From an uncultured Bacilli bacterium (GTDB lineage: Bacteria; Bacillota_I; Bacilli_A; RFN20; CAG-288): DNA of 42,225 bases. Positions 28,835 through 32,804 of the stretch are shown here, piece after piece. The DNA lies in contig CALVKB010000008.1 of the NCBI GenBank assembly GCA_944332485.1, positions 1-42,225 on the forward strand, written 5' to 3'. How positions within the stretch are numbered: the stretch's first letter is position 1; every line of letters begins with the position of its first letter. The notes below the pieces were generated by a model. The model worked only from the letters and a program-made list of their open reading frames with translations. It had not been told where the DNA came from and did no database searches. A program made the translations under genes and the position numbers.

Positions 28835-30736
28835 ATGAAGATAGAATTAAGTGAAAATGAAAGATTAACTGGTTTAGAAAATTTGAAAAAATTGCCATCT
28901 GATGTTGCCAAAAAAGCAGTGGCGATGAGAGTTAATGGGCAACTTATGGATTTGCAAAGAGAACTTCATAACGATGATGAAGTTGAATATTTAACAACAG
29001 ATGATAAGGATGCTTTGCAAATTTTGTATCATTCTAGTGCACATTTACTTGCTCAAGCGATATTGGAATTGTATCCAGGTACACAACTTGAATATGGTCC
29101 TGCACTTGAAGAAGGTTTTTTCTACGATTTTGAATTTCCTGAAAATGTTGTTATCAATGAGAAGGATTTTCCAAAAATTGAGAAACAGATATTAAAATTA
29201 GCTGAAAGAAATTTAACAATCGAAAGAAAAGTTGTTTCAAAACAAGAAGCTAAACAATTATTTGAAAATCAAAAATACAAATTGTTGCATATCGATGAGA
29301 TAGAAGGCGAATTGACAGTTTACAAGCAAGGTGATTTTGTTGATCTTTGCTGTGGACCTCATGTTCCATCAACTAAATTTTTGAAATTTATAAAATTAAC
29401 TGCCATCTCTGGAGCCTATTTCAAAGGTGATAAAAACAACGCAATGTTAACAAGAATCTACGGCACCGCACAATTTACAAAGGAAAAACTCGATGAATTT
29501 TTAAAAATTGTCGAGGAAAGAAAATTATCCGATCATAGACGTATAGGTCAACAGATGAAGCTTTTTATGCTTTCTGACTACGGACCGGGCTTTCCATTTT
29601 GGCTTCCAAACGGTATGATTTTGTATCATCAACTTGAATCATGGTGGTATGACATTCATGCTGAGAATGGTTACAAATTTGTCAAAACCCCGATCATCTT
29701 AAATAAGGAATTATGGTTGACCTCTGGTCACTGGGCTAATTATAAAGAGAATATGTACACCACCAAGATCGATGAGGAGGAGTACGCAATCAAACCTATG
29801 AACTGTCCAGGCGGTATGTTGATTTATAAAAATGACATACACTCCTACCGTGAATTACCATTACGCTATGGTGAGCTTGGTTTAGTTCACCGTCATGAAG
29901 CAAGCGGTGCTCTCAACGGTTTGTTCAGAGTTCGTACTTTCACTCAAGATGACGCTCATATATTCTGTACACCAGCTCAATTGGAGAAGGAAATTTCCAA
30001 TTTATTGAAATTGTTCGATAAGGTTTACAAAGTTTTCAATTTGCCATATCACATCGTTCTTTCAACAAGACCTGAGAAAAAATTCATCGGAAAAATCGCT
30101 GATTGGAACAGAAATGAGAATATTCTTAAACGTTGCTTGATCAAAAACAAGATTGATTTCAAGATCAACGAAGGTGATGGTGCTTTCTATGGTCCTAAAC
30201 TTGATTTCAAGATCAAAGATAGTCTTAACAGAACTTGGCAATGTGGTACTATTCAACTTGACTGCAATCTTCCAGAGAGATTCGATTTGACATATGTCGA
30301 TAAAGATGGTGAGAAGAAACGTCCTATCATGTTGCATAGAGCAATTTTCGGATCCCTTGAGAGATTCATCGGTGTTATTACTGAGCACTTCAAAGGAGCA
30401 TTCCCAACCTGGTTAGCTCCAAAACAAGCCATAATAATTCCTGTCAATTCTGAGATAAAAGAGCAAGTGAAATTTGCTATGAAACTTGAAAAGAAACTTT
30501 TGAAGTACAATGTTCGTGTTTCAACTGACCTTAGAAATGAGAAGATGGGATTCAGAATTCGTGAAGCTCAAGTCTCAAAGATTCCATATCAAATTATCAT
30601 CGGTGATCAGGAAGTTTCATCAAACAATGTCTCCTATAGATTATTCGGTGAGGAAAAAACAACAACATTACCTATCGATAAGTTTGTCAAATTGATAACA
30701 AACGATATTAAAACTCACCAAACATATCGAAGCTAA
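28835..30736 (+). CDS. thrS: Threonyl-tRNA synthetase
   Basis: Class II synthetase charging tRNA-Thr. The N-terminal TGS domain (about 1-60) is followed by the editing domain with HSSAHLLAQAI and CCGPHVPST, which removes mischarged serine. The catalytic domain has YAIKPMNCPGGMLIY (zinc Cys), HRHEASGALNGLFRVRTFTQDDAHIFC (motif 2) and HRAIFGSLERFIGVITEHF (motif 3). The anticodon-binding domain closes the protein. 633 residues is normal. It ends the glycolytic operon and is followed by the long-loop terminator. No T-box leader is visible upstream; the gap to the ROK kinase is 11 bases. Confidence 0.96.
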   Translation: MKIELSENERLTGLENLKKLPSDVAKKAVAMRVNGQLMDLQRELHNDDEVEYLTTDDKDALQILYHSSAHLLAQAILELYPGTQLEYGPALEEGFFYDFEFPENVVINEKDFPKIEKQILKLAERNLTIERKVVSKQEAKQLFENQKYKLLHIDEIEGELTVYKQGDFVDLCCGPHVPSTKFLKFIKLTAISGAYFKGDKNNAMLTRIYGTAQFTKEKLDEFLKIVEERKLSDHRRIGQQMKLFMLSDYGPGFPFWLPNGMILYHQLESWWYDIHAENGYKFVKTPIILNKELWLTSGHWANYKENMYTTKIDEEEYAIKPMNCPGGMLIYKNDIHSYRELPLRYGELGLVHRHEASGALNGLFRVRTFTQDDAHIFCTPAQLEKEISNLLKLFDKVYKVFNLPYHIVLSTRPEKKFIGKIADWNRNENILKRCLIKNKIDFKINEGDGAFYGPKLDFKIKDSLNRTWQCGTIQLDCNLPERFDLTYVDKDGEKKRPIMLHRAIFGSLERFIGVITEHFKGAFPTWLAPKQAIIIPVNSEIKEQVKFAMKLEKKLLKYNVRVSTDLRNEKMGFRIREAQVSKIPYQIIIGDQEVSSNNVSYRLFGEEKTTTLPIDKFVKLITNDIKTHQTYRS

Positions 30737-30761
30737 TAAAAAATTTATCTAAACAAAAATT

Positions 30762-30840
30762 GCTATTGAATTTAATATGTATCTTTTTACTGGACATCCA
30801 GTATTAAGTTCACATCTAATAAATTCAATAGCTTTTTTAA
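30762..30840 (+). terminator. Nested long-loop terminator after thrS
   Basis: Arms GCTATTGAATTTA (30762-30774) and TAAATTCAATAGC (30820-30832) pair over 13 bases, followed by six T residues. The 45-base loop holds a second perfect hairpin TACTGG/CCAGTA (30788-30803). An A-run on the left side lets it work on the minus strand too. Its architecture matches the ispH-trmK element. Confidence 0.7.
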
Positions 30841-30844
30841 TATA

Positions 30845-30874
30845 TAAAAAACTCGGCAGAATGTTTGCCGAGTT
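30845..30874 (-). terminator. Strong intrinsic terminator closing the hairpin array
   Basis: On the minus strand AACTCGGCA and TGCCGAGTT pair over 9 bases around AACATTC and are followed by a run of five to six T residues. It takes the place of the second hairpin in the last unit of the array at 30875-31137 and is the only strong terminator downstream of mraZ-rsmH. Confidence 0.88.
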
Positions 30875-30943
30875 CCAGAAAGGAGGTTACAGAAATTTAA
30901 ATATAAGGAGACTATTTAAATTTACAAGATTCATAAATGAACC

Positions 30944-31137
30944 CCAGAATTTTCATTCACCGATTTCATTTTGAAATCATTTATAAGATCTTAACGATCC
31001 CAGAATAATGTTATTCACCGATCCTATTTGATAGAATCATTTATAAGGCATGCGCCCCAGAATTTGCATTCACCGATCCTGAAACATCAGAATCATATAT
31101 AAGATCTAACAGATCTCCGAATAATTATTCACCGACA
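30944..31137 (-). repeat. Imperfect tandem repeat, 55-59 base period
   Basis: The conserved core, ATTCACCGAT on the plus strand, starts at 30955, 31013, 31068 and 31127 (last base C in the fourth copy), giving steps of 58, 55 and 59. Between cores, CCAGAAT and ATCATTTATAAG recur. Stem A (GAAT/ATTC) lies at 30947-30958, 31003-31016, 31060-31071 and 31119-31130. Stem B lies at 30928-30943, 30987-30999, 31047-31056 and 31102-31116. Stem C lies at 30893-30923, 30962-30978, 31020-31038 and 31075-31094. The copies are too diverged to be a recent slippage product. Confidence 0.75.
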
Positions 31138-31353
31138 TTACTCGAAGTATATGTCGAATGATTGGACAGGTTGAACCAAGTAACCACTGTCTCTGTTTTG
31201 AACGACAGGTTTTGTTTGATTCAATGTCATCGATAAAGTGAGAGGAATCAATATTGCAGCTGAAATAAAAGTTAATGCTGTGCAAGTTATGGCAGTACGT
31301 CTTATTGCCAAATCAGTTTTCTTCAAACCAGTTTTGAATAATTTTTCTTTCAT
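31138..31353 (-). CDS. Small single-pass membrane protein in the ftsL position
   Basis: A 71-residue protein: a basic N-terminus (MKEKLFKTGLKKTDLAIRR), one transmembrane helix at about 20-44, and a short outer tail ending QSFDIYFE. It begins 17 bases after the rsmH stop and has AAAGGA at a good distance. In most Firmicutes the gene after rsmH is ftsL, whose product has the same topology, but FtsL has an outer coiled coil that this tail is too short and proline-rich to form. I therefore call it an ftsL-position protein of unknown function. The hairpin array starts immediately after its stop codon. Confidence 0.65.
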   Translation of the reverse strand: MKEKLFKTGLKKTDLAIRRTAITCTALTFISAAILIPLTLSMTLNQTKPVVQNRDSGYLVQPVQSFDIYFE

Positions 31354-31370
31354 ACTTTCGATTCCTTTCT

Positions 31371-32309
31371 CTACAATCTTTGAATAGCTCTTAATTTACT
31401 CGGTTTGCAACGTGGATTATCCTCTATTTCTTCGTAGGAAGGAGCAATTGGTTTTTTGGTCAATACTTTGTACTTCACTTCTTTTTCACTAGGAGGGAGA
31501 TATTTTGAGATAAACACCTCTTTGGTAAGTGAATCAAAGTAACGTTTGACAATCGCATCTTCGTGTGAGTTGAAAGTGATAATCATCAAAATTCCATCTT
31601 TGTTGAGGAATTCTGTGGCTTTTTTCAAACCTTCAATTAATTCGTCATGCTCTTTATTCACTTCATATCGTAAAGCCATGAAAGTTCTCTTAGCTGGGTG
31701 ATGTTCTTTAAACAACTGTTTCTTAGGTAATGAACTTTTGATAATATCAACCAATTCGAATGTGGTTTCTATTGTTTTGTTCTGCCTTGCTAAACAGATG
31801 TTTTTTGCAATGGACTTAGCAAATTTCTCATCACCATAATCGTATATGATTCTAGTCAAGTCTCTTTCTGAATAAGTGTTGACAACTTCATAACAGGAAA
31901 GTTTCTGACTTTGATCCATTCTCATATCCAATTTTGCATCAAATCGATAGGAAAATCCTCTTATAGGATCATCGAATTGTGGAGAACTTACCCCAATATC
32001 AAATAAACAAAGATCAATTCCAGCAACATCATTCTCTTTTAGATAGTCAATCGCTTTTGAGAATTTCGACTTAACTATATTGATGTTACCTTTTAAATTC
32101 TTGAAATCTTCCTTAACGTATTTGATAGCTTCATCATCACAATCAAATCCGTAATAATTAAGATTTTCAGAATCCAGCTTCTCTATTATCTTTCTAGAAT
32201 GCCCGCCTCGACCAAGGGTCATATCTACAAATGTGAATTTGGATTTAGTTGGTTTTTTGACAAATGATAATACTTCATCAAGAAGCACACTTTTGTGCAG
32301 TTGATTCAT
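31371..32309 (-). CDS. rsmH: 16S rRNA (cytosine(1402)-N4)-methyltransferase
   Basis: Methylates C1402 of 16S rRNA in the decoding centre; formerly MraW. It shows LHKSVLLDEVL, the SAM motif FVDMTLGRGGHSRKI, LFDIGVSSPQFDDPIRGFSYRFDAKLDMRMD and HPAKRTFMALRYEVNKE, all family signatures. 312 residues fits. The frame is open 9 bases further to a TTG inside mraZ, but the ATG at 32309 lies just after the mraZ stop (TAAGATG) and gives MNQLHKSVLL, so I choose it. mraZ-rsmH is the conserved head of the division and cell wall cluster. Confidence 0.96.
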   Translation of the reverse strand: MNQLHKSVLLDEVLSFVKKPTKSKFTFVDMTLGRGGHSRKIIEKLDSENLNYYGFDCDDEAIKYVKEDFKNLKGNINIVKSKFSKAIDYLKENDVAGIDLCLFDIGVSSPQFDDPIRGFSYRFDAKLDMRMDQSQKLSCYEVVNTYSERDLTRIIYDYGDEKFAKSIAKNICLARQNKTIETTFELVDIIKSSLPKKQLFKEHHPAKRTFMALRYEVNKEHDELIEGLKKATEFLNKDGILMIITFNSHEDAIVKRYFDSLTKEVFISKYLPPSEKEVKYKVLTKKPIAPSYEEIEDNPRCKPSKLRAIQRL

Positions 32310-32310
32310 C

Positions 32311-32733
32311 TTATCCAATCAATTCTTGTGCGGATTTAGAATAATTCTCTTCGTTGTGCTTATCAACCTCAGTGAATTTATCCTTGTCCCAGACTTCCAA
32401 ATGGTCGTTCATTCCAACAAGTACAACTTCCTTTGTGATATGTACTTTGTTGAGTAAAAAAGAGGGAATAATAATTCTGAATTGAGAATCCATCGTAACT
32501 ACTTGCGAGTTAGAGAAGAAGACTCTTTTAAGTAATCTGGATTTCTCATCAAAATCAGACAAACTCTGAATTGCTTCTGCTCTCTTTTTGTAATTTTCTT
32601 CATTGTAGAGAGACAAGCAATTATCAAAATCGAGTGTCACATAGATGTCAGTTGAAAATTCTTGTCTAGCTTTTGAGGGTAAAACTAAACGCATCTTATT
32701 ATCAAGAGAATGAAAATATTGTCCTAATAACAT
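32311..32733 (-). CDS. mraZ: Transcriptional regulator MraZ
   Basis: DNA-binding regulator of the division and cell wall cluster; forms a ring of AbrB-like domains. Its 140 residues contain both domain signatures, LDNKMRLVLPSKARQE near the start and MDSQFRIIIPSFLLNK in the second half. The frame is open to 32757, but that would add GVGGGKF encoded by the operator itself; the ATG at 32733 gives the family start MLLGQYFHSLD and has GGAGG 7 bases upstream. It should bind the four boxes at 32743-32777 and so control its own operon. Confidence 0.95.
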   Translation of the reverse strand: MLLGQYFHSLDNKMRLVLPSKARQEFSTDIYVTLDFDNCLSLYNEENYKKRAEAIQSLSDFDEKSRLLKRVFFSNSQVVTMDSQFRIIIPSFLLNKVHITKEVVLVGMNDHLEVWDKDKFTEVDKHNEENYSKSAQELIG

Positions 32734-32740
32734 GAACTTT

Positions 32741-32785
32741 CCTCCACCTACACCCATAGTATACCACTTTCTCCCACCTTTTCAA
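32741..32785 (-). promoter_or_regulatory. mraZ promoter with four MraZ-binding boxes
   Basis: On the minus strand a -35 TTGAAA (32785-32780) and a -10 TATACT (32763-32758) are 16 bases apart. Four TGG boxes, GTGGG, GTGGT, ATGGG and GTGGA, lie exactly 10 bases apart (32777-32773, 32767-32763, 32757-32753, 32747-32743). Ten-base-spaced TGG repeats are the known operator of MraZ. The last box overlaps the GGAGG ribosome binding site (32745-32741). Confidence 0.85.
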
Positions 32786-32804
32786 ATATTCCCTAATTTT
32801 TTTA

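Follow-up and report, generated by a model that had tools for sequence, protein, structure and literature searches.

A tandem array of four three-hairpin units in the putative 3' UTR of an mraZ-mraW-ftsL-like operon from an uncultured Bacilli bacterium

Introduction

Short hairpin-forming units follow one another in tandem behind an operon carrying mraZ and mraW in an uncultured Bacilli bacterium, which raises the question of whether they are a structured RNA, and of what kind, or a repeat whose pairing arose without RNA function. The window, that is, the whole stretch of 42,225 nt analysed here, has a G+C content of 31.6% and is contig C8 of a 52-contig genome (1.13 Mb, 94% complete); the source organism is an uncultured Bacilli bacterium with a reduced genome. 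By MraW, its closest named relatives are gut genomes of uncultured Bacilli and of the Erysipelotrichaceae type, with identities of at most 50%. The MraW scan of the genome contigs found no relative above 50% identity and thus no genus sibling for comparison, and the compared genome set contains no second member of the source genus.

Results

Genomic setting of the array

The operon and its surroundings contain the following features.

32311..32757, minus strand: mraZ (Pfam PF02381, E=5e-27), with the true start probably at 32733
31371..32318, minus strand: mraW (rsmH) methyltransferase (Pfam PF01795, E=1e-100)
31138..31353, minus strand: putative FtsL-like small membrane protein of 71 aa, the last operon gene (position after mraW, size and hydrophobic stretch)
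30848..30876, minus strand: intrinsic terminator GGAACTCGGC..GCCGAGTTTT with a T tail
28835..30736, plus strand: thrS, the convergent neighbour (Pfam tRNA-synt_2b and others)

The array sits between the ftsL-like stop and the terminator, on the same strand as the operon, and a promoter scan directly upstream of it found no convincing promoter. The operon direction and the terminator suggest that the array is the 3' UTR of an mraZ-mraW-ftsL-like mRNA and not a free-standing RNA gene. A small ORF likewise follows mraW in the family relatives, which keep mraW, this FtsL-like ORF, the terminator and mostly the convergent thrS, with short array-free stretches between. The array appears to be a gain of this lineage within a 3' UTR that already existed, loss everywhere else being less likely.

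Two further observations concern the flanks. Translation of mraZ probably begins downstream of the listed ATG at 32757, a good ribosome-binding site being present at the 32733 start; MraZ-like GTGG boxes with ~10-bp spacing lie just upstream of mraZ (32733-32790, minus strand). A second imperfect inverted repeat, at 30744-30850 of the window, lies beyond the terminator and beside the stop codon of thrS. Its 34-nt arms are 76% complementary with 39 nt between them, and no other full copy was found in the genome.

Anatomy of the array

In the array, four units of 56-61 nt stand in tandem, without gaps, on the minus strand at 31155-30920 (236 nt). The units and the elements that follow them are listed in the order of the minus strand.

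31095..31155, minus strand: unit 1 (61 nt), with C0 GACAU/AUGUC, GGU, A1, B1 AGATCT/AGATCT and linker; found by a model built without it
31039..31094, minus strand: unit 2 (56 nt), with C1 GATTCTGA/TCAGGATC, GGU, A2 (GCAA loop), B2 UGGGGC/GCCUUA and linker UAAAU
30979..31038, minus strand: unit 3 (60 nt), with C2 GATTCTAT/ATAGGATC, GGU, A3, B3 UGGGAUC/GAUCUUA and linker UAAAU
30920..30978, minus strand: unit 4 (59 nt), with C3 GATTTCA/TGAAATC, GGU, A4 (GAAA loop), B4 GGTTCA/TGAATC and linker UAAAU
30893..30923, minus strand: terminal AU-rich hairpin AAATTTAAAT...ATTTAAATTT with a CUCCUUA loop, where a fifth C stem would stand
30877..30887, minus strand: C-rich, anti-Shine-Dalgarno-like ACCUCCUUUCU, assigned by sequence

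Each unit runs from hairpin C, with a stem of 7-9 bp, through an invariant GGU to hairpin A (GAAU-loop-AUUC) and hairpin B, which begins at the very next base, and closes with a UAAAU-type linker. At the base of hairpin B, UGG pairs with UUA through G-U pairs, with a slight departure in unit 1. The C0 hairpin of unit 1 overlaps the last codons and the stop (31140-31138) of the 71-aa ORF. Pairwise identity among the units is ~65-80%.

All the stems named in the first-pass annotation are present at their places. That annotation had counted about 4.5 units of 55-59 bases; the tandem units stand, and the best cut of the repeat, C-A-B-linker, yields the four complete units and a fifth, C-like hairpin. 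The first C hairpin (GACAU..AUGUC) extends 5' of the array start as first reported, and stem B exists but is longer than described, including the UGG/UUA pairing. The 11-base stem that had been counted as a member of stem C belongs to the terminal C-like hairpin, which is of a different family.

Two other readings of the array were rejected. A coding sequence would be interrupted by stops in every frame, and some of the units have lengths not divisible by three. Copies of an MraZ operator do not match in spacing, as the TGGG motifs of the array are 55-60 bp apart compared with the ~10 bp of the boxes upstream of mraZ.

Folding and covariation of the units

Folding of 31155-30920 on the minus strand gave an MFE of -66.1 kcal/mol, compared with -47.9 ± 4.1 kcal/mol for shuffles (z -4.4, 0/200). 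In a genome-wide folding scan of the minus strand, the best window inside the array ranks 88/20,702, so the array is structured, not extreme. A covariance model of units 2-4 recovered the left-out unit 1 in a search of the window (26.6 bits, E=2.2e-4).

When the four units are aligned by structure, pairing holds in 98.7% of the cells, and 10 of the 22 pairs have changed on both sides, with a covariation score of 0.432 vs. 0.229 ± 0.044 for shuffles; these values come from four rows of related copies whose alignment was fitted to the structure by the model. Each of the three lies beyond all 500 shuffles (0/500) and above all six slid controls, in which sliding the partners by 1-3 columns destroys them. 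The tandem units thus differ in sequence yet keep their pairs, the pattern expected of a tandem structured RNA under pairing constraint. The array is real and more than chance, and it probably folds as RNA in the mRNA tail.

The double changes fall in stem C (6 of 8 pairs) and stem B (4 of 9 pairs), where the earlier claim of changing sequence with kept pairing is borne out. It fails for stem A, which together with the GGU shows no variation across the four copies; because stem A never varies, it shows sequence conservation, not covariation.

Related copies in an array can mimic covariation even in the absence of selection, and hairpin perfection by template switching is the main rival explanation. 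Here, a neutral tandem repeat of quasi-palindromes would have been duplicated, and template switching during replication would have rewritten its stems as perfect inverted repeats, producing apparent covariation without RNA function. We regard this as possible, if somewhat unlikely. The part of PMC8794818 cited here argues that template switching creates and maintains RNA hairpins, and in the array the changes cluster in the stems while the linkers are unchanged. However, neither stem A nor the unpaired GGU varies among the four copies despite the divergence of the units, and this counts against template switching.

Strand of the structure

The plus-strand complement also folds better than its shuffles (MFE -40.5 vs. 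-29.7 ± 3.8, z -2.8), as palindromes must, and this agrees with template switching as well. The minus strand has an MFE advantage of ~25 kcal/mol, which partly reflects base composition, and the array window that ranks best on the minus strand is ordinary on the plus strand in the genome-wide folding scan. Read on the minus strand, the stems hold G-U and A-C cells in a ratio of 12:1, a count that rests on a structure defined on that strand and in which many of the 12 G-U cells are duplicates of one ancestral pair, so that the independent events are perhaps 6:1. Template switching yields Watson-Crick pairs, whereas these stems keep G-U pairs. The G-U count, the operon direction and the terminator support the minus-strand reading, which is favoured, not proven; the first-pass assignment of the structure to a minus-strand RNA is upheld to that extent, tempered by the folding of the plus strand.

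Distribution of the array

The covariance model found only these four units in the source genome, and tandem-repeat and folding scans found no second array there, each search covering nearly all contigs. A covariance-model search of related genomes, which the first-pass annotation had proposed, returned no homologue. There was no match in the 22 other family genomes, one match in 278-279 order genomes, inside apparently coding sequence, and none in 395 sampled class genomes or 392 sampled phylum genomes; lax filters in 39 relatives gave only chance coding matches, and blastn with the array in relatives only short AT-rich chance matches. Homologues with compensatory changes, the mark of a conserved RNA class, were thus found in none of the family, order, class and phylum samples.

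Weak candidates were inspected and rejected. A weak extra match (G000:C11) falls in what appears to be coding sequence and seems to be a chance hit. In other genomes, the weak matches of the model (L122, L208-L214) and the viral contigs that carry the core pattern (L203-L207) are apparently coding or protein/DNA repeats and lack the unit anatomy. A dispersed or mobile hairpin repeat of the BOX/REP/MITE type needs copies at separate loci; as the unit occurs at one place only, it is not a mobile repeat at present.

Rfam covariance models gave no match at the gathering threshold in the window, and in 30600-31400 only sub-threshold noise, e.g. RsaOG at 22.4 bits vs. 50. The earlier remark that no named RNA class was known with such a layout agrees with this, and the chance insertion of a known mobile repeat, which had been raised against the RNA reading, finds neither copies elsewhere nor an Rfam match. 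The term undescribed structured RNA is fair for one locus; an RNA class is not supported, there being no homologue in the genomes searched.

As no homologue was found, the covariation is confined to comparisons between paralogous copies of a single array. The absence of the array from all relatives searched and its site between convergent genes, where repeats are tolerated, fit template switching too. Since no second genome carries the array, no orthologous comparison is possible, and orthologues alone can decide between RNA selection and template switching. The array is probably an RNA-level, lineage-specific 3' UTR repeat and not a widespread RNA class.

A separate 44-bp palindrome, GAGAGGTACCCC-AAATCCTAGACATTAGGAAA-GGGGTACCTCTC, has 4 copies in the source genome, one with a variant arm (L048:7820, L050:14088, L066:17177 and L110:4914; also L215-L217), and none in the other family genomes searched. 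In at least three cases it lies within the hairpin loop of an intrinsic terminator, e.g. AAAACTGCTGA...TCAGCAGTTTT, a placement suggestive of a mobile hairpin that inserts into terminator loops.

C-rich motifs and the terminator

The CUCCUUA loop of the terminal hairpin is predicted to be ~80-98% unpaired. By an alternative reading, quite improbable in our estimate, a regulatory RNA, perhaps processed from the operon mRNA, would pair through this loop and ACCUCCUUUCU with target Shine-Dalgarno sequences, and the array would be its stabilising scaffold. In B. subtilis, RoxS binds Shine-Dalgarno sequences via C-rich regions (PMC5419742). In the window, an 8-bp pairing is possible between ACCUCCUUUCU and the ribosome-binding site of ftsL, AGAAAGGA (31370-31363). 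The genome sequence searched contains just 9 occurrences of CCTCCTTTC, and most of the others lie opposite gene starts. Of ~14 family members inspected, 6 retain ACCTCC(TTTCT) in this 3' UTR. However, these six lack the array: the C-rich motif predates it and does not need it, so this reading leaves the repeats unexplained. Half of ACCUCCUUUCU is also predicted to be partly paired. The ACCUCC(UUUCU) of the mraZ-mraW-ftsL 3' UTR, seen in relatives L013-L016, L018 and L019, resembles the 3' tail of 16S rRNA.

ToxI, the RNA of a type III toxin-antitoxin system, has tandem RNA repeats that precede an intrinsic terminator. The same succession here could suggest a type III-like RNA antitoxin or a decoy array with each repeat bound by protein. 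However, no same-strand gene follows the terminator, the next gene being the convergent thrS; no convincing promoter of its own was found, and the repeats are divergent rather than near-identical. The gene order largely refutes this reading, which is very improbable.

Discussion

Our preferred explanation, which we give about an even chance, is that the array is a structured mRNA 3' UTR that stabilises the 3' end or offers multi-site protein docking. From synteny, one three-hairpin unit would have arisen or inserted between the ftsL stop and the ancestral terminator and then been duplicated to four copies. Read-through of the operon would transcribe the array, and the pair counts show that each copy keeps the fold of C, GGU and then A and B end to end while its stems drift. 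The resulting string of 12-14 hairpins would most likely shield the mRNA 3' end from 3'-5' exonucleases, and the invariant GGU-[GAAU..AUUC]-UGG core may let an RNA-binding protein or a nuclease, e.g. RNase III, dock at each repeat. The 3' UTR reading is supported by a core sequence that stays invariant as stems C and B diverge. A more specific and unlikely version would make the array a multivalent mRNA tail, in which four three-hairpin protein-binding motifs on the mra operon mRNA give a copy-number-tunable control of ftsL/mraW in a reduced-genome Bacilli lineage.

If the pairing is selected, a repeated RNA structure can emerge de novo and quickly at a single 3' UTR of one lineage, which would bear on the origin of structured UTRs. 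With four paralogous units side by side, the array is a clean natural test case for true RNA covariation vs. stems rewritten by template switching; as long as orthologues are lacking, the name RNA class is premature.

The array resembles three known systems in part. Like ToxI, as treated in the cited part of PMC8860590, it has tandem RNA repeats before an intrinsic terminator; unlike ToxI, it has no toxin gene following, consists of diverged three-hairpin units of 56-61 nt and lies in an operon 3' UTR. The array region shares with the RoxS/RsaE-type C-rich sRNAs of Firmicutes the single-stranded C-rich stretches able to pair with Shine-Dalgarno sequences, whereas no separate promoter was seen here and the C-rich motifs lie outside the repeats. 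Streptococcal BOX elements are modular hairpin units, boxA-boxB(n)-boxC, in which the number of inner units in tandem varies; they often lie between convergent genes and are transcribed as structured operon 3' extensions. In pneumococcus, BOX repeats form such extensions and have been proposed to protect transcripts against exonucleases (PMC3049150). Many copies of BOX are scattered over the chromosome, whereas the array is at one locus, without flanking A/C modules and with no relative found; the two are alike in their modular hairpins in tandem, their convergent-gene site and their place in an operon 3' extension, the transcription of the array being inferred.
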